From: Thermoplasmata archaeon
GTDB taxonomy: Archaea > Thermoplasmatota > Thermoplasmata > Methanomassiliicoccales > Methanomethylophilaceae
Length of the DNA: 44,989 nucleotides
Assembly (NCBI GenBank): GCA_015063165.1
Contig: SUSZ01000014.1
Span: 1 to 44,989 of the forward strand
Reading direction: 5' to 3'
This document shows, piece by piece, positions 16,718 through 31,906 of this stretch (within the stretch, counting starts at the first letter, position 1; every line of letters starts with the position of its first letter). Under the pieces are notes generated by a model, which had not been told where the DNA came from, made no database searches, and saw only the letters and a list, made by a program, of their open reading frames with translations. The translations under genes and the position numbers were made by a program.

Positions 16718-19336
16718 TCAGACCTCGATAAGGACGAGGATCCCGCCGACCTGGATGGTGTCGACAGCCTTTCCGTCGAGCATGAGGCGCTTCTCGACCT
16801 CGAAGAACTCCGAGCCTACGGAGACCTTCTCTCCGCCGACATCGAACTCCACAGAGCCGTTGGCAAGCTGCGCCGCGGCTTCCTTGGGATCCATCGCAGC
16901 GATGGCGGAGACGATCCCCTTGGCCTGGGCTTTGAAGGCGGGTCCGAGCTTGGAGTGGACCGGCTTGATTCCGGTGACGTCCTCGGTGAGCTTGGCTTCG
17001 GGGGCGATCTTGACCTCCTTGGCCTTGGTGGTCTCCATGATGTCGGCTTTGGCGCACTCGAGGATCTTCGCGTCCGCTCCGACGAGCTCCATGAGGGTCA
17101 GCTCTGCGTTGAGGGGGATCTTCTTCTCTCCCTTCCAGGCGCGGACCTCGGCGAGGACGTTCTTGAGGACCTCTCCGGCTGCCTCGGCCTCGTCGTCGGT
17201 GAACATGGGCTCGGGCCAGGCGGTCAGGTGAAGGCTCCTGCATCCGTCGATGGCCTTGAAGTGCTCCTGGTAGACGTCCTCGGTGACGTGGGGCATGAAG
17301 GGGGCCAGCATCTTGATGCTTCCGAGGAAGACGTTGTACAGCGTGTATTTCACAGCGGGGTCGTTCCTGGCCTTGACCATCTCGACGTAGTTGTCGGCGA
17401 ACTCGTGCCATATAAATCCCTCGACCTCTCTCATGGCCTTGTCGAACTGGTACTGTCCGAGGCAGGAGTCGACGGTTTCGAGGACCTTGGTGTACTTGCT
17501 GATGATCCACCTGTCGGAGGTCCTGAGCTCGGGCTGCTCCTTGGGGACGTCGTCGAAGAACCTGGACACGAACTGTCCGAGGTTGAACACCTTGTTGCAG
17601 AGCTTCTTTCCGCGGATGACGTCCTTCTCCCTGAAGGCGTGGTCGATTCCGAGTGAGCAGGTGGCGGCGTAGTACCTCAGAGCGTCGGCCCCGTAGTTCT
17701 TGAGGATCGGTATCGGATCGATGACGTTTCCGATGGAGGAGTGCATGGGGGTTCCGTCGGGGGCCATGATGAATCCGTGGATCATGATGTCCTTCCAGGG
17801 GATGCTCTCCTCGATCTGCTCCGCCCTGAGGATGGAGTAGAACGCCCAGGTCCTGATGATGTCGTGAGACTGGGGCCTCATGCTCATGGGGAACAGCTTC
17901 TTGTGGAGCTCCTCGTCCCTTCCCCAGTACGTGTTGTACAGGGAGGATCCGGAGGAGTCCATCCAGGTGTCGAAAACATCGGTGCATCCGACGAGCTTTC
18001 CGCCGCACTTGGGGCACCTGTCCACGGGAGGAGCGTCGAACACGGGATCGACGTAGCACTGCTCTTTGGTGGCGCACACTGCGTGGCCGCACTTCTCGCA
18101 TTCCCAGATGGGGATGGGGGTGGCGAAGACCCTCTGCCTGCTCAGGACCCAGTCCCACTCAAGGGAGTTGGTCCAGTCCTGCAGCCTGATCTTCATGAAC
18201 TCGGGGAACCAGTTGATCTCGTCCGCCCTCTTCAGGATGGTGTCCTTGAAGGAGGTGGTCTTGAGGAACCACTGGGGCACCTGAAGGAACTCGATGGGGG
18301 TGTGGCACCTCCAACAAATGGAGACCTGCTGGGGGTTGTCCTCCTGCTTGACGAGGAGTCCGGCTGCACGGAGGTCCTCAATGGCGGCCTCCCTCGCCTC
18401 CAGAACAGGCATTCCGGCGTACTTTCCGGAGAGCTCGGTCATCTTCCCGGCCTCGTCGATTCCCTTCTCCATGGGGAGGTGGTACTTCATGACCCACATG
18501 AGGTCGTCCTTGTCCCCGATGGTGCATATCATGACGTTCCCGGTTCCGTAGTCCAGCTTGACGGCGGGATCGGCGATGACCTTGACCCTCCTTCCGTACA
18601 AGGGGGTGATGAGCTCCTTTCCGACGAGATGGGACTTCTCCTTGTCGTCTGGGTGGACGGCGACGACCTTGCAGGTGCAGAGGAGCTCGGGCCTGGTGGT
18701 GGCCACGAGGACGTAGTCGTCCTTCTTGTCGGAGTCGGCGACCATGAACTTGATGTAATTGAGCTTGTTGACGTTATCCTTGTACTCCACTTCAGCGTCC
18801 GCAAGGGCGGTCATGCATCCGGGACACCAGTTGACGGGGAAGTTCGCCTTGTAGACGAGGCCTCTGTTGAACAGGTTCACGAAAGAGAGCTGGGTGATCC
18901 TCCTGTAGTAAGGAGCGTCCGTCTGGTAATAGATGCTGGGGTCCATGGACTCTCCGAGCATCTTGAAGTCCTCGGTCATCTGCGCGATGAATCCGTTGGC
19001 GTAATCCTCGCAGAGCTTCCTGTACTCCTGCCTGGGGGTGTCGAGCTTGGTGATGTGGTGCTTCTTCTCGACCTTGACCTCGATAGGGGTCCCGTTGACG
19101 TCGAAGCAGAGGGGGAAGAACACGTTGTACCCCTTCATCCTCCTGTAACGGGCCGCGAAATCGATCAGGGAGTATCCCGTAGCGTGTCCCAGGTGCAGAG
19201 GTCCCGAAGTGTACCTCGGCGGATTGTCGATGCTGTACACCGGCTTCTCGGACTTGGGGTCGAAGCGATACACCGCCTCGTCCTTCCACATGTCCTGCCA
19301 GCGTTTCTCGATGGAAGCTGAATCGTACTGTGCCAT
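16718..19336 (-). CDS. valS: Valyl-tRNA synthetase
   Basis: This class I synthetase charges tRNA-Val. The product from ATG 19336 has 872 residues, as expected. The HIGH motif is HLGH at residues 48-51 inside NPPRYTSGPLHLGHATG. The editing (CP1) domain with zinc-type cysteines occupies the middle, WCPGCMTALADAEV lies near residue 170, and a CPKCGGK knuckle near 445. The KMSKS loop near residue 530 reads GTPMHSSIGNVIDP, a variant in which the first lysine is proline and the second is serine. An upstream in-frame extension to 19381 runs through the promoter and is rejected. The TATA-like CTTATATACC at 19363-19372 is about 30 bases before the ATG. A hairpin with a TTCG loop ends the gene. Confidence 0.94.
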   Translation of the reverse strand: MAQYDSASIEKRWQDMWKDEAVYRFDPKSEKPVYSIDNPPRYTSGPLHLGHATGYSLIDFAARYRRMKGYNVFFPLCFDVNGTPIEVKVEKKHHITKLDTPRQEYRKLCEDYANGFIAQMTEDFKMLGESMDPSIYYQTDAPYYRRITQLSFVNLFNRGLVYKANFPVNWCPGCMTALADAEVEYKDNVNKLNYIKFMVADSDKKDDYVLVATTRPELLCTCKVVAVHPDDKEKSHLVGKELITPLYGRRVKVIADPAVKLDYGTGNVMICTIGDKDDLMWVMKYHLPMEKGIDEAGKMTELSGKYAGMPVLEAREAAIEDLRAAGLLVKQEDNPQQVSICWRCHTPIEFLQVPQWFLKTTSFKDTILKRADEINWFPEFMKIRLQDWTNSLEWDWVLSRQRVFATPIPIWECEKCGHAVCATKEQCYVDPVFDAPPVDRCPKCGGKLVGCTDVFDTWMDSSGSSLYNTYWGRDEELHKKLFPMSMRPQSHDIIRTWAFYSILRAEQIEESIPWKDIMIHGFIMAPDGTPMHSSIGNVIDPIPILKNYGADALRYYAATCSLGIDHAFREKDVIRGKKLCNKVFNLGQFVSRFFDDVPKEQPELRTSDRWIISKYTKVLETVDSCLGQYQFDKAMREVEGFIWHEFADNYVEMVKARNDPAVKYTLYNVFLGSIKMLAPFMPHVTEDVYQEHFKAIDGCRSLHLTAWPEPMFTDDEAEAAGEVLKNVLAEVRAWKGEKKIPLNAELTLMELVGADAKILECAKADIMETTKAKEVKIAPEAKLTEDVTGIKPVHSKLGPAFKAQAKGIVSAIAAMDPKEAAAQLANGSVEFDVGGEKVSVGSEFFEVEKRLMLDGKAVDTIQVGGILVLIEV

Positions 19337-19362
19337 GGCTAACGGCATGGCATAAATGAAAA

Positions 19363-19372
19363 GGTATATAAG
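19363..19372 (-). promoter_or_regulatory. TATA box of valS
   Basis: Minus-strand CTTATATACC is centred about 31 bases before the valS ATG at 19336, giving a very short leader. Confidence 0.6.
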
Positions 19373-19379
19373 TGGTGTC

Positions 19380-19409
19380 AAAAAGGGTTTGCGGGGCCCG
19401 ATGCCCCGC
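19380..19409 (-). terminator. GC hairpin plus T-tract after the CBS-HPF gene
   Basis: Bases 19391-19397 and 19403-19409 form a perfect 7-bp GC-rich stem. On the minus strand it is followed by five T residues (19380-19384). This looks like an intrinsic terminator between the CBS gene and the valS promoter. Confidence 0.7.
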
Positions 19410-19415
19410 AGGAGC

Positions 19416-20591
19416 TCACTTCTTCCTCTTGCGGAAGGTGACCTTCGAATCCTTCATGTTGATCACGGCATCCTCGAGCTTCTTGATCAGCGTAGAGCAG
19501 GTCTGCACGAGATCCCAGCCGACCTCCTTCATCATGACGGCGGTTCCGTTGATGAACAGCCTCGCGCTGACGCTGTACTTGAAGCTGCCTCCGACGTCGT
19601 TGTACCTGGACACGTGCATCGTCAGGGACTCGGGCTTGTAGATCTTCGAGATCTTGGACACCATCGACTCGATGTCGGCGTAGATGGGTTCCACCGCCAT
19701 CTTCTCGTCGTCTTCGAGACCGCTGATCTGGACGAACAGCATGTCCCTCTCCCTGCATGCGGAGATCAGTTCCAGTATGTCGAACTCGGTGATGATTCCG
19801 ACAAGGGACTTGCCCTCCACGACCGGCAGGGACGAGAACTTGTTGTCCACCATCAGGTCGACCGCCTCGGATATGTCCGCATCCCATTCGATGACGCAGG
19901 CGGAAGTGGTGGCGATGGACTCGACCGTTATCTGAGAGCGGGAGCTCTTCTCCAGGTCTCCGATGGTCTTGTTCTCCTTCTTCCAGTTGTTGTCGATGAT
20001 CTCCCTCATCCCGATGACGCCCACGACGGCGTTCTGCTCGTTCACCACAGGCAAGGTCCTGTAGTCCTCGCGTATCATGAGCGCCAGAGCGTCGTCCATG
20101 AGGTCGTTGACCTTGACGGACTCGACCGGATTGCTCATGATCTCCCAGACCTTGATCTCCTTCAAGGCGCGTATGTCCCTGACGATCTCGATCAGTCTGT
20201 TCCTCTCGATGATACCTATTATCTTCTTCCCGTTGAGGATAGGCAGCTGCCTGCAGTTGTTGGTGACGATCATCTCCGCGATGCGGGTGATCTCCATGTC
20301 GGCAGTGACCGACGGGAAGTTGCGGATCAGGCTCTTGACCTTGGCATCCAAAGATACGCTCTTCTTTCTGAGGATGGACGAATAGCTCACCATCCCCACG
20401 AATTCGCCCTGGTCGACGACGGGCACATCCTGGTACCTCGTCTCCTTCATCACGGCGAGGACGTCCGCGATGCGGTCTTCGGAAGAGACCACAGGGAAAT
20501 CCTCGGACATGATCCTGTCGACGGATATGCCGTCGATCTGCGACCTGAGCATAGAAAGCTTCTTCAGATCTTCTAGGTCCTTTACAGCCAT
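19416..20591 (-). CDS. Four-CBS-domain protein with HPF-like C-terminal domain
   Basis: Residues 1-290 carry four CBS motifs as two Bateman modules, for example IMSEDFPVVSSEDRIADVLA, PILNGKKIIGIIER, PVVNEQNAVVGVIGM and PVVEGKSLVGIITE. These usually sense adenine nucleotides or SAM. Residues 300-391 (SLTMHVSRYNDVGG, then KYSVSARLFINGT and WDLVQTCSTLIKKLEDA) resemble the hibernation-promoting factor fold, which blocks the ribosomal mRNA channel. The lysine- and arginine-rich end FRKRKK would suit rRNA binding. Length is 391 residues. The gene lies between valS and glyS on the same strand with its own terminator. A nucleotide-controlled ribosome hibernation factor is my inference; other RNA-binding roles remain possible. 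Confidence 0.82.
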   Translation of the reverse strand: MAVKDLEDLKKLSMLRSQIDGISVDRIMSEDFPVVSSEDRIADVLAVMKETRYQDVPVVDQGEFVGMVSYSSILRKKSVSLDAKVKSLIRNFPSVTADMEITRIAEMIVTNNCRQLPILNGKKIIGIIERNRLIEIVRDIRALKEIKVWEIMSNPVESVKVNDLMDDALALMIREDYRTLPVVNEQNAVVGVIGMREIIDNNWKKENKTIGDLEKSSRSQITVESIATTSACVIEWDADISEAVDLMVDNKFSSLPVVEGKSLVGIITEFDILELISACRERDMLFVQISGLEDDEKMAVEPIYADIESMVSKISKIYKPESLTMHVSRYNDVGGSFKYSVSARLFINGTAVMMKEVGWDLVQTCSTLIKKLEDAVINMKDSKVTFRKRKK

Positions 20592-20697
20592 GTCTTTACA
20601 CCTCGATGGAATAAATCGGAGAGATGGACATATAATACTTGCCGAAATTGGCTATAGGGCTGCATGCCTCAGTGGATGAAATGCAACCAGATGGATG

Positions 20698-20744
20698 AAA
20701 AAGGTCGGATGGATGCTGGATCTAACCAAGCCAGCATCGCATCC
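20698..20744 (-). terminator. Strong hairpin terminator after glyS
   Basis: Bases 20707-20719 pair with 20731-20744 in a 13-bp stem with a single bulged G and an 11-base loop. On the minus strand a five-T run (20698-20702) follows four bases later. It lies 21 bases past the glyS stop. Confidence 0.75.
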
Positions 20745-20764
20745 TTTTGAAAGGCATTATATAC

Positions 20765-22459
20765 TCAAAGGGATGAGAACGATCTGCCTGCCAGGAGTTC
20801 CTCGAGAACCGCGGATGCGGAGTCTGCGGGGATGCGCTTCTGGTCGGTGGTGTCCCTGTCCCTTATCGTGACGGTCCCGTCCTGGAGGGTCTGGTAGTCC
20901 ACGGTTATGCACCAGGGGGTTCCGACCTCGTCCATGCGGGCGTACCTCTTCCCGATGGTCCCGGAGCCGTCATAGTAGGCCTCCATCCTGTGGGTGTGGA
21001 CCTTCTCGTAGATCTCCTTCGCCTTGTCGTCGAGGCCGTCCTTCTCCATCAGAGGGAAGATACCGACCTTTATGGGGGCCACAGCGGGCGCGAACCTGAG
21101 GACGGTGTAGTCGTCCTTGGAATCGTAGGCGTGCTCGAGGACGGAATAGAATATCCTGTCCAGTCCGTGGGAGGGCTCGATGACGTGAGGGACCACGCGG
21201 ACTCCGGCGACCTTCTCGACCCTCTTGACGACCTCGAAGTACTCCTCGGTGAGGGTTATCTCCTCTCCGTCGACCTTGACCGCGAGCTTGCCGTCCTTCA
21301 CGTCGGATGGGGTCATGGACTCCATGGCTGCGGCGATGGCCTTGGCCTTTCCCTTGAAGGCGGGTCCGAGCGCCTTGTGCTTGGCGGCGATCTTCTCGAC
21401 CTCCATCTCGCGGGGCTCGTCGAACCTCTTCAGGTGGGTGAGGTCGGCTCCGGAGAACTGGGCGTGCCTGGAGAGGTCCCAGGACCCCCTGTCCGCGATA
21501 CCGACGATCTCCGTCCACCCGTATGACAGGAGGACCTCGGCGTCCCAGCAGTCGGCGGCGTAGTGGGCCATCTCGTCCTTCTCGTGCTCTCTGAACCTGA
21601 GCCTCTTGGCGTCGATCCCGAGGGAGGTGAGGAGCTGCTTGGTGGTGTATACGAAATAGGCCAGAACGCGATTGGCGATGACTCCCTTCTCCACCGCCTC
21701 CTTCACGGTCATGGTGGTGAGCTCGAGGGTGGTGTTAGGGATCAGGTCCAGGGTCTCGTTCTCTATCTCGGGGAACTTGGCCCAGTCCTTGTCCTCGGGG
21801 TCCACGAAGAGCTCGACCTCCATCTGGTTGAACTCCCTCATGCGGATCATCCCCTGGCGGGGAGCGATCTCGTTCCTGTAGCTCCTGCCGGTCTGAATGA
21901 CTCCCATGGGGAGCTTCTCCCTGTTGTACCTGTACAGGTTCTGGTAGTTGACGAAGATCCCCTGGGCGGTCTCGGGCCTGAGGTATCCGACGCGGGCGGA
22001 CCCGGGTCCGATGTTGGTCCTGAACATCAAGTTGAACTCCCCGACCTCTCCGAGCTCTCCTCCGCACGCGGGGCACCTTATGTTGTGCTTAACGAACGCC
22101 TCCTCGAGCTCCTTGGGGGTGAGGATGTCGGGGTTCTCGTAGAATCCCTTGACCATATGGTCGGCCCTGTAGGGGGCGTTGCACTGCTTGCAGTAGGTGA
22201 TGAAGTCTGCGAAGTTCTCGACGTGACCGGAAGCGGCCAGCACCTCGCGGGGATTGACGGTCTCGGAGTCGATCTCTACGAAACCCTCCCTTCCCTTGTA
22301 TATCGACCTCCACATCTCGACGATGTTGTTCCTGAGAGCGCATCCCAGAGGGCCGTAGTCGTACATTCCGGCTACGCCTCCGTAGAGCTCGAAGGAAGGC
22401 CAGATGAAACCCCTGCGTTTGCACAGGGACATGAGGTCGTTGCTGTTGATATCAGTCAT
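20765..22459 (-). CDS. glyS: Glycyl-tRNA synthetase (archaeal/eukaryal type)
   Basis: This class II dimeric synthetase charges tRNA-Gly. From ATG 22459 the protein has 564 residues. It starts with SLCKRRGFIWPSFELYGG and MYDYGPLGCALRNNI, both characteristic of the alpha2 archaeal family. An insertion carries zinc-type cysteines (CKQCNAP, CPACGGELG). Class II motif 2 is visible at IQTGRSYRNEIAPRQGMIRMREF, and the C-terminal anticodon-binding domain includes GIFPLMEKDGLDD. The start overlaps the preceding CBS gene by 8 bases, so it is probably co-transcribed with uspA and the CBS gene. tRNA-Gly(UCC) is also in this window. Confidence 0.94.
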   Translation of the reverse strand: MTDINSNDLMSLCKRRGFIWPSFELYGGVAGMYDYGPLGCALRNNIVEMWRSIYKGREGFVEIDSETVNPREVLAASGHVENFADFITYCKQCNAPYRADHMVKGFYENPDILTPKELEEAFVKHNIRCPACGGELGEVGEFNLMFRTNIGPGSARVGYLRPETAQGIFVNYQNLYRYNREKLPMGVIQTGRSYRNEIAPRQGMIRMREFNQMEVELFVDPEDKDWAKFPEIENETLDLIPNTTLELTTMTVKEAVEKGVIANRVLAYFVYTTKQLLTSLGIDAKRLRFREHEKDEMAHYAADCWDAEVLLSYGWTEIVGIADRGSWDLSRHAQFSGADLTHLKRFDEPREMEVEKIAAKHKALGPAFKGKAKAIAAAMESMTPSDVKDGKLAVKVDGEEITLTEEYFEVVKRVEKVAGVRVVPHVIEPSHGLDRIFYSVLEHAYDSKDDYTVLRFAPAVAPIKVGIFPLMEKDGLDDKAKEIYEKVHTHRMEAYYDGSGTIGKRYARMDEVGTPWCITVDYQTLQDGTVTIRDRDTTDQKRIPADSASAVLEELLAGRSFSSL

Positions 22460-23300
22460 TGTTATTACCTGTGATCGCGCACAGAACGTCGACGTCATAT
22501 ATCATGCCGACGAGCTCGTCCTTGGTTCCGCGAACGGGAATCTGACCGAAATCGTTATTCAGCATTATCTTCGCGACCTCCGCCACGTTGGTCCTCTTGA
22601 AGACGGTGTGGGGATTGGGGACCATGAAGTCCTTTACCTTGCGGTCGTCGAAGTACTCCTCGCTGACCGAGTAGAACAGAGGGAGGACGTTCCTGTATCC
22701 GGCGTAGTCGCCGACGTCGAGTCCCAGGGACTTGAGGGTCTCGGGATCCTTCATCTGGTCGCTGAACAGGTCACGGTCCGTCAGAATCCCGGTGAGCCTT
22801 CCGTGGGCGTCGAGGACGGGGACGGCGGTGACATCGCTGATCCTCATGGCCGCGACGGTGTACGAGAGAGGCTCCTCCTCGTAGGCGGTGACGCAGATGG
22901 TCCGGATGATGTCCTCGGCCACCAGCTTGGTCTTCAGGTCCTTGACGATGCGGAGGAGGTCGGTAGGGGTGACTATGCCCACGAGGGACGACCCCTCGAC
23001 GACGGGGAGCCTGTGGATCCTCTTCTCGCTGAATATCTTGGCTGCCTCCTCTACAGGAGCGTCGGAAGAGATGGTGATGCATCCCTTCTTCATGATGAGC
23101 GAGAGCTGGTCCTCCTCGAAGTTGCGGAATATGTCCCTCCTGGAGACCACGCCGATGAGGCTGCCGTCGCTGGAGCGGACCACGGGAAGTCCTGTGAGGC
23201 CGTTCCTGACCATCAGGTTGATGGCGTTGTTGCGGGATCCGGGGACCTCGACCACGATAGGGGCAGGCGTCATCACGTCTGCAACTGTCTTGCCGATCAA
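22452..23300 (-). CDS. CBS-domain protein (four CBS motifs)
   Basis: This 282-residue protein consists almost entirely of CBS motifs: DVMTPAPIVVEV with LTGLPVV, HRLPVVEGSSLVGIVTPTD, VTAVPVLDAHGRLTGILTDRD, and FMVPNPHTVF with FGQIPVRG. There is no output domain, unlike its paralogue at 19416-20591, so it probably works as a nucleotide-sensing partner. The start appears to be TTG at 23300, one base after the uspA stop, with a purine-rich AGGCGGGG about 8 bases upstream. The first in-frame ATG would cut into the first CBS motif. It overlaps glyS by 8 bases. Confidence 0.82.
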   Translation of the reverse strand: MIGKTVADVMTPAPIVVEVPGSRNNAINLMVRNGLTGLPVVRSSDGSLIGVVSRRDIFRNFEEDQLSLIMKKGCITISSDAPVEEAAKIFSEKRIHRLPVVEGSSLVGIVTPTDLLRIVKDLKTKLVAEDIIRTICVTAYEEEPLSYTVAAMRISDVTAVPVLDAHGRLTGILTDRDLFSDQMKDPETLKSLGLDVGDYAGYRNVLPLFYSVSEEYFDDRKVKDFMVPNPHTVFKRTNVAEVAKIMLNNDFGQIPVRGTKDELVGMIYDVDVLCAITGNNND

Positions 23301-23301
23301 A

Positions 23302-23742
23302 TCAGTTCCCCGCCTCTGAAGCCCTGACTACCAGGACAGGGCAAGAAGAAGCCCTGACGACCCTTTCGGCGACGCTTCCCATCAGAAGCTTGGACATTCC
23401 GGTCCTTCCTAGGGTTCCCATGATGATCATGTCGTACTTGGGGGATTCCTCCAGGATGACCTTGACCGGGGACCCTTCCTTGACGGAGATCTCGACAGGG
23501 ACTCCAGCCTCCTCCGCCATATGCTTGACGACGTCGACGGCTTCCTTTCCCTCGGTGGCCAGGGCGTCGTAGACGTTCCTGACAGCCGCGTCCATGGGCA
23601 TATTGGAAATCATGGTCTGATCCAGGACGTAGAGGGCGGTGATCTTTCCTCCCACGGTCTTCGCAAACTCGACAGCCGCCTTGATGGCGGTCTTGGTGTA
23701 CTCGCTTCCGTCAGTGGGCACAAGTATGTTCTTGAACTCCAT
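23302..23742 (-). CDS. Universal stress protein, UspA family
   Basis: This 146-residue protein has the full UspA fold. It starts with FKNILVPTDGSEYTKTAIKAA, in which the aspartate contacts ATP. It ends with MGTLGRTGMSKLLMGSVAE, matching the ATP-binding pattern G-x2-G-x9-G-S, and then CPVLVVR. It likely binds ATP and acts in stress adaptation. It heads a run uspA-CBS-glyS with gaps of one base or overlaps. Its own promoter probably lies in the AT-rich stretch around 23855-23925, which is inside the upstream amidohydrolase frame. Confidence 0.9.
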   Translation of the reverse strand: MEFKNILVPTDGSEYTKTAIKAAVEFAKTVGGKITALYVLDQTMISNMPMDAAVRNVYDALATEGKEAVDVVKHMAEEAGVPVEISVKEGSPVKVILEESPKYDMIIMGTLGRTGMSKLLMGSVAERVVRASSCPVLVVRASEAGN

Positions 23743-24806
23743 CTTCGTTCACTTCCGATTCTCTTTGTCAGAGACATGCCTGACGACCCCGGCCGGAAGA
23801 TGTTCTCGGGCAGAGGCTCTCCTTCGAACGGCACCGCCATGTAGCGTCTCTGTATATCTCTGCCTAACCCTATATTCCGATTTAATATCTTTCTACTTAA
23901 TGTGAAAAATGTATCGAAAACCGAGGCCGAATCCCCCTCCTGTCTATCCATTATGTCGATAAATAGGGAAGATTCCGCAATCATGTCGGGTTCGCGCAGC
24001 ATACCGTTATCGGTACCCAACGCCATGTCGGCTCCCATATCAACGATGCGGGAGAGCGGAGGGACCTTCCCGAAATACATGTTCGACCCGGGACAGACCA
24101 CTATCGGGACCTCGGCCTCGGCGCATTTCAGTATGTCGGAGTCCTCGGCCTCGCACATATGAACGACGAAGGTGGGGTCCAAGGAGAGGACGAGGTCCAT
24201 ATCCTCGCGGACGCGCTCGCTCACGTGGATGGCGAAAAGCGCCCTTCTGTCGCGAACCATGTCGGCGACGTCCTCGATGTATCCCGAAGGCATGTCCGAT
24301 ACGCTGGAGATGCCTATCCCGTCAGCATACCGCAGGATCTCCTCAATCTCCCCGGGATCGAACTCCGGAGAGACCGGGCGTCCCAGGATGACCGCGTCAG
24401 GACAGGCCTCCCGCAGGAGACGGCATCCTTCCGCGCCGTTCTCCCTGAAATCCACGAATGCGGAGCTCCCGTGCGACGCTGAAGCCTCTCCGAAGCGCCT
24501 CATGTTCTCTGAAAGCACCTCCCCTGGCGTGTCGCGGAGATACCTGTGCTTCAAGCCGTCCGGCGGGGCCACGAGGTCCTCCAGGGACATCCCTGCGGGG
24601 ACCTTCAGGCCGTAGTCGGCGCAATGGGTGTGGGCGTTCACCACGTCCGGAAAAAGCGCCAGCTGGATGTCCGTGCGCTCGGGGCAGGGCCCTTCGTCCT
24701 CCTCGACGATTACCCCTCCTTCGGCTATGACGTATCCTTCGCGGAAGCCCCCGCGCTCATAGGTGAAGGCTTCCGCCGCGAAACGGTCGGGCATCCTCTG
24801 GTCCAT
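23610..24806 (-). CDS. Amidohydrolase-family enzyme with abnormal C-terminus
   Basis: This metal-dependent hydrolase resembles the cytosine-deaminase/ATZ-TRZ branch. Visible metal ligands are HTH at residues 59-61, a histidine in AIHVSE near 197, a histidine in VVHMCEAEDSD near 216 and the aspartate in LGTDNG near 267. The frame runs on without a stop for 133 bases into uspA, so roughly the last 45 residues are an out-of-frame copy of that gene. Codons before it (about residues 295-320) turn AT-rich, unlike the rest. The usual closing beta-sandwich strands are missing. Either the end has been lost and the frame now reads into uspA, or a frameshift is present. The substrate is unknown. Confidence 0.7.
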   Translation of the reverse strand: MDQRMPDRFAAEAFTYERGGFREGYVIAEGGVIVEEDEGPCPERTDIQLALFPDVVNAHTHCADYGLKVPAGMSLEDLVAPPDGLKHRYLRDTPGEVLSENMRRFGEASASHGSSAFVDFRENGAEGCRLLREACPDAVILGRPVSPEFDPGEIEEILRYADGIGISSVSDMPSGYIEDVADMVRDRRALFAIHVSERVREDMDLVLSLDPTFVVHMCEAEDSDILKCAEAEVPIVVCPGSNMYFGKVPPLSRIVDMGADMALGTDNGMLREPDMIAESSLFIDIMDRQEGDSASVFDTFFTLSRKILNRNIGLGRDIQRRYMAVPFEGEPLPENIFRPGSSGMSLTKRIGSERRWSSRTYLCPLTEASTPRPPSRRLSSLRRPWEERSPPSTSWIRP

Positions 24807-30631: not shown

Positions 30632-31906
30632 ATGCGTGCACCTATAATGGACATGACGCTCATCTATGCCGTCGTAATCGCTCTGCTTATAGTCTGCTCA
30701 TCGTTCTTCTCGATGTCGGAGACCGCATTCACAAGCGCCAACCCGATCAGGCTCAAGAAGATGGCCCAGGACGGCGATGCCAGGGCTGACAAGGTCATCA
30801 GGATCCTCGACAACTACGACAAGCTCCTGACCACGGTCCTGATAGGGAACAACCTGGTCAACATCGCCGGCACCTCCATAGCTACCTTGTTCTTCGCCAT
30901 CCTTCTTGGCGCGGAGACGGGAGCGGTGGCTTCCACGGTCGTCATGACCGTTCTGGTCCTGATATTCGGAGAGATCATCCCCAAGTCGATTGCCAAGCGC
31001 AAGCCAGAGAAGGTATGCCTCAGGATCTGCGGCATCATCCGCGTTCTGGAGGTCATCTTCAGCCCCATCTCCTGGTTCTTCGGGAAGATGACCGCGGCGA
31101 TATCGAAGGGGGAGGAGGACGCCACCCTCACAGAGGACGAGCTCGAGGTCATGATCGACGAGATCGAGGACGAGGGAGTTCTCGAGAAGAGGGAGAGCGA
31201 GCTCATCAAGTCGGCTATCAGGTTCGACGACATCCAGGTGTCCGAAGTGTACATCCCCAGGATGGACGTAGAGGCCGTCGACATCGAGATGACCCCCGAA
31301 GAGGTCGGAGAGGTCTTCGTCCGCACCGGATACTCCAGGCTCCCGGCTTACAGCAAGAACATCGACAACATAGTCGGAATCATCTACGCCAAGGAGTTCT
31401 ACGCCGACCAGTTCAAGGGTACTATGCCTGCGATAAAGGACATCGTCAGGCCCATCAAGAGCGTCCCCGAGACCGCGAGCATAGCGAACCTCCTGGCTGA
31501 CTTCCAGAAGTCCAAGATCCACATGGCGGTCGTTCTCGACTCCTACGGAGGAACCATGGGGATAGTCACCATGGAGGACCTCCTGGAGGAGCTCGTCGGG
31601 GAGATCTGGGACGAGAGCGACGAGGTCCAGCACGACGTGTCCGCAGGTTCCGACGGAACGTTCATCGTCAAAGGAACGGCCAACATCTACGACGTCATGG
31701 AGAAGATGGAGGTCCCGTTCGACCCCGAGGAGTACGAGGACTACTCCGTCAACGGATTCATCTGCTACAAGCTGGGCAGAGGACCCGCCCGCGGAGACCG
31801 CGTCTCCATACCCCACGTCGACATCACCGTCAAGAGCGTGAAGGGACGCAGGGTCGTGGAAGCGGTCTTCAGGAAGGAAGAAGGGGCTCACGAAGAGCCC
31901 GAGTGA
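30632..31906 (+). CDS. CNNM/CorC-type membrane protein (DUF21-CBS-CorC)
   Basis: This 424-residue protein has the CNNM/hemolysin-C architecture. The N-terminal DUF21 domain has about four spans with SSFFSMSETAFTSANPIRLK, then NNLVNIAGTSIAT and VLIFGEIIPKSIAKRKPE. Two CBS motifs follow (residues 215-330; YIPRMDVEAVDIEM, GGTMGIVTMEDLLEELVGEI). The C-terminal CorC/HlyC domain ends near VKSVKGRRVVEA. The family is linked to magnesium and sodium export and is regulated by Mg-ATP through CBS. In-frame ATGs at 30632, 30647 and 30653 leave the start open. A TATA element at about 30563-30569 implies a leader of around 40 bases. Confidence 0.9.
   Translation: MRAPIMDMTLIYAVVIALLIVCSSFFSMSETAFTSANPIRLKKMAQDGDARADKVIRILDNYDKLLTTVLIGNNLVNIAGTSIATLFFAILLGAETGAVASTVVMTVLVLIFGEIIPKSIAKRKPEKVCLRICGIIRVLEVIFSPISWFFGKMTAAISKGEEDATLTEDELEVMIDEIEDEGVLEKRESELIKSAIRFDDIQVSEVYIPRMDVEAVDIEMTPEEVGEVFVRTGYSRLPAYSKNIDNIVGIIYAKEFYADQFKGTMPAIKDIVRPIKSVPETASIANLLADFQKSKIHMAVVLDSYGGTMGIVTMEDLLEELVGEIWDESDEVQHDVSAGSDGTFIVKGTANIYDVMEKMEVPFDPEEYEDYSVNGFICYKLGRGPARGDRVSIPHVDITVKSVKGRRVVEAVFRKEEGAHEEPE

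Follow-up and report, generated by a model that had tools for sequence, protein, structure and literature searches.

The window, a stretch of 44,989 nucleotides from a Methanomethylophilaceae archaeon (order Methanomassiliicoccales), harbors on its minus strand an ATG-initiated open reading frame at positions 19416-20591. It encodes a protein of 391 amino acids and was assigned as hibA, a fusion of four CBS domains with an HPF/RaiA-type domain, on the basis of the reading frame, the four CBS matches in Pfam and a full-length match to the PDB chain 9sr9_H. The source genome comprises 2.28 Mb in 67 contigs. Relatives from the same genus were up to 96% identical in the HibA protein, and those near relatives that carry a name were assigned to Candidatus Methanomethylophilaceae archaea of rumen and gut origin.

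All assigned neighbors lie on the same strand. Upstream of hibA, glyS (20765-22498) encodes glycyl-tRNA synthetase, in which Pfam recognized a class II synthetase and an anticodon domain, and downstream, the product of valS (16718-19381) was assigned by Pfam to the class I tRNA synthetases of the valyl type. The placement of the gene between valS and glyS on one strand, as given in the original prediction, was confirmed, the order of transcription being glyS, hibA, valS. Further upstream follow a stand-alone four-CBS protein (22452-23300), a universal stress protein (Usp; 23302-23742; Pfam PF00582, E 2.8e-32) and an amidohydrolase-like reading frame (23610-24806). The best NCBIfam match of the stand-alone four-CBS protein was HhpR (NF053603, E 7.5e-35, below the cut-off of that model), and the protein probably belongs to the family named CM-3 in the paper on HibA cited below. 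The order amidohydrolase, Usp, HhpR-like four-CBS protein, glyS and hibA, usually followed by valS, was conserved across the Methanomassiliicoccales. At 20 loci sampled elsewhere in the phylum these neighbors were absent from the vicinity of hibA, save for one TrxB match. Tandem HibA genes were seen between glyS and valS at several family f6 loci (L015, L021, L023 and L028). Each copy was about 32-36% identical to the protein of the window and the HPF domain was retained in the copies that were aligned; sub-functionalization is possible. At a distance from hibA, the plus strand of the window carries a membrane-protein-like reading frame of 424 amino acids (30632-31906) with a CBS pair at 31241-31597, the first of which fell below the Pfam cut-off. 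This protein may resemble transporters of the CorC/hemolysin type.

The glyS-hibA intergenic region (20592-20764) contains a terminator-like stem, recognized by eye, a TATA-like element (ATTATAT) and a GAGGT ribosome-binding site. The latter two were conserved in 13 aligned upstream regions, which suggests that hibA is transcribed separately and likely has a promoter of its own. In the gap between hibA and valS (19382-19415), a GC-rich stem with a T run resembles a terminator and is followed by a TATA-like element ahead of valS. The terminator-like site 3' of hibA was poorly conserved, and its occurrence (one found versus 0.9 expected) agreed with chance. At several loci of the same genus, some of them short, valS was not found adjoining hibA. 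Because hibA has signals of its own and valS is missing beside it at these loci, a strict glyS-hibA-valS operon is not favored. A TATATAA-like element (20757-20763, minus strand) immediately follows the stop codon of glyS and lies some 170 bases ahead of hibA. It was conserved in 13 of 13 aligned sequences; a second promoter or the start of a small RNA are possible explanations.

Four stretches of the protein matched the CBS model (PF00571, E 4.9e-42), together forming a CBS module that spans about residues 24-283 (19743-20522). With this module as query, Foldseek retrieved the AMP-bound structure 3ddj, MJ1225, SriA/B, Dri and AMPK gamma. NCBIfam matches of the whole protein to PrdR, CbpB and others were rejected, as they reflected common CBS domains and lay far below the cut-offs. 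The T-x-x-D motif generally marks the ribose-phosphate contact in CBS adenylate sites. In an alignment of 37 relatives it was kept in CBS4 only, Thr268 and Asp271 both being present in 37 of 37 sequences, and the motifs of CBS1 to CBS3 were degenerate. That of CBS3 had been lost to a G-x-x-E type, with an invariant Gly194 and Glu, Asp or Gln at position 197. Restriction of the motif to CBS4 predicts a single adenylate site. The interface of CBS3 and CBS4 probably binds one adenylate, which may tune HibA.

The C-terminal part, about residues 284-391 (19419-19742), ends in a basic FRKRKK tail that is kept in the relatives. As a single sequence, this part had no HPF match in Pfam, NCBIfam or the PDB, so profile and fold comparisons were needed. 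A profile built from the 37 relatives matched an HPF chain from Psychrobacter (8rd8_D, E 0.007) and, more weakly in the same search, 3tqm (Coxiella factor Y) and 4v8h (Thermus HPF chain). Individually, 11 of the 37 relatives matched Ribosomal_S30AE (PF02482), with a best E value of 5e-5. The protein of the window did not reach the gathering cut-off of this model; it has the same fold and is not a member by that measure. A PF02482 search of the whole genome matched no gene, the model also missing hibA itself. In the AlphaFold2 model, strands at residues 286-290, 320-330, 338-347 and 350-358 combine with helices at 294-314 and 361-390, and this predicted order is the HPF/RaiA topology. When the model of this domain was compared with the PDB, all of the top 30 Foldseek matches were HPF, pY or RaiA structures (best E 1.2e-6, probability 1.00). 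The domain is, as judged by its sequence, a very divergent HPF. The original prediction of four CBS motifs joined to an HPF-like domain with a basic tail was therefore borne out, including by the fold prediction it had proposed as a check; the start of the HPF part, however, lies near residue 284 and not 300.

The protein is a member of a published family. Its best PDB match by sequence was chain 9sr9_H, residues 21-380 of the query aligning with residues 3-372 of the chain (E 2e-18). Entry 9SR9 is HibA of Pyrococcus abyssi, described in "A family of ribosome hibernation factors widespread in Archaea" (Madru et al., Nat Commun, April 2026; PMC13324472). In that work, a HibA protein consists of four CBS domains in tandem followed by an HPF/RaiA domain at the C-terminus, the HPF domain having two archaeal insertions. 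The family was reported from 47% of archaeal genomes and all major archaeal lineages (PMC13324472). Similarity extended into the C-terminal domain: under the lineage profile, the P. abyssi stretch scored higher than all 5000 shuffles of itself, and hhalign aligned the two domains with an E value of 0.001 at a low probability (21%). A PDB search with the lineage C-terminal profile did not list chain 9sr9_H at E ≤ 10. At E ≤ 1e-40, HibA-like proteins were present in 127 of 293 sampled Thermoplasmatota genomes and in 105 of the 159 more complete ones. HibA was near-universal in the order Methanomassiliicoccales at this threshold, at which it was not found in the genomes G031 and G053 (96% and 98% complete), reflecting either loss or an assembly gap. 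Thus, the gene at 19416-20591 is the HibA of a Methanomethylophilaceae archaeon and an ordinary member of its family. Its architecture and ribosome-protecting role were known before, since HibA had already been published for 47% of archaeal genomes, and the kind of system that the original prediction called little described has since been described in archaea.

Functional knowledge comes from the Thermococcales, where ribosome binding, inhibition of translation, ribosome preservation and binding of AMP and ATP have been shown for HibA (PMC13324472). In P. abyssi, the HPF domain fills the 30S channel for mRNA and tRNA. Three alternative positions on the 50S subunit (PTC, uL5 or L1 stalk) are available to the CBS module, which covers vacant tRNA sites there (PMC13324472). 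Deletion of hibA in Thermococcus barophilus lowered the 70S pools and delayed recovery from stationary phase (PMC13324472). No experiments on any Methanomassiliicoccales HibA were found in the literature, and we infer that the Methanomethylophilaceae orthologue would act like its Thermococcales counterparts. Membership of the HibA family supports both the fusion and a role in ribosome hibernation. By homology, the C-terminal domain would lodge in the channel through the 30S subunit that mRNA and tRNA otherwise occupy, and the CBS module would swing over vacant tRNA sites of the 50S subunit. Idle 70S ribosomes would thereby be held together, silenced and protected until regrowth, and one adenylate at the CBS3/4 interface may tune this plugging. 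With high confidence, we regard an orthologue of HibA that plugs and preserves idle 70S ribosomes, and probably binds one adenylate at CBS3/4, as the best explanation as a whole.

One detail of ribosome engagement might deviate. Between α8 and β10, where CBS3 and CBS4 lie, HibA has a long PTC loop (PMC13324472). Alignments showed its counterpart between CBS3 and CBS4 of the protein of the window (about residues 203-219; 19935-19985) to be shorter than the P. abyssi loop by about 3 residues, and the pLDDT of the model was low there. A GEK signature that P. abyssi shares with many Thermoplasmatota outside this lineage is missing from the loop here. The shorter loop devoid of GEK implies that the PTC-bound conformation may differ.

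It had also been proposed that the energy state of the cell directly switches ribosomes off. The hibernation part of this proposal is upheld by the family assignment; direct switching by nucleotides is a reasonable hypothesis. Ribosome binding by P. abyssi HibA was not clearly altered by either AMP or ATP, and nucleotide control was left open (PMC13324472). A true energy switch, in which AMP or ATP at CBS3/4 directly controls ribosome engagement, appears rather unlikely. In its favor, the CBS4 motif is invariant in the 37 relatives, and the P. abyssi CBS module (HibA-CM) binds AMP, ADP and ATP with affinities of 12, 65 and 113 μM, respectively (AMP > ADP > ATP), AMP and ATP occupying one CBS3/4 site with one nucleotide per module (PMC13324472). 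However, AMP left the conformations of P. abyssi HibA and their distribution unchanged, ATP altered them only marginally, and native HibA-ribosome complexes contained no nucleotide (PMC13324472); moreover, the CBS3 motif has been lost in the lineage studied here. It is doubtful that hibernation, adenylate sensing and tRNA charging are co-regulated within the Usp/HhpR-like CBS/glyS/hibA/valS neighborhood as a stress and translation cluster, with HibA being released or sequestered by the AMP/ATP ratio. A drifted role not involving ribosome binding, for example as a sensor that cooperates with aminoacyl-tRNA synthetases or with the products of the neighboring Usp and HhpR-like CBS regulator genes, is very improbable. 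The gene neighborhood conserved across the order, the shortened PTC loop and DNA replication and recombination proteins in pulldowns with Thermococcales HibA (cited in PMC13324472) would fit such a role, but the HPF fold, the basic tail and conserved C-terminal positions have been retained across the order. Finally, a CBS-associated domain of another fold, suggested by the failure of the single-sequence searches, is refuted as far as prediction allows by the HPF profile matches, the PF02482 matches of the relatives and the uniform Foldseek result.

Recognition as a HibA orthologue provides a functional assignment for a gene of certain gut methanogens whose product would leave annotation pipelines as no more than a "CBS domain-containing protein." HibA is a clear candidate for ribosome preservation between feeding periods in these organisms, and its single conserved adenylate site makes nucleotide control testable.

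Compared with P. abyssi HibA, the protein shares the four-CBS module and C-terminal HPF/RaiA domain, the end-to-end alignment, the topology and the T-x-x-D motif of CBS4; it differs by about 20 extra N-terminal residues, by G-x-x-E in place of T-x-x-D in CBS3 and by the location of its gene beside glyS and valS. The C-terminal domain has the fold of the bacterial HPF/RaiA (pY) family (PF02482), whereas identity in the structural matches was about 10-20% and the domain is fused here to CBS domains. HhpR-like/CM-3 proteins, one of which is encoded close by at 22452-23300, also consist of four CBS domains; however, they stand alone, lack an HPF domain and have been described as a transcriptional regulator. 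The CBS ribosome-binding proteins Dri of Pyrobaculum calidifontis and SriA-D of Methanosarcina acetivorans are similar in the fold of the CBS module but, according to the literature and entry titles, lack the HPF/RaiA domain and represent another route to idle ribosomes.
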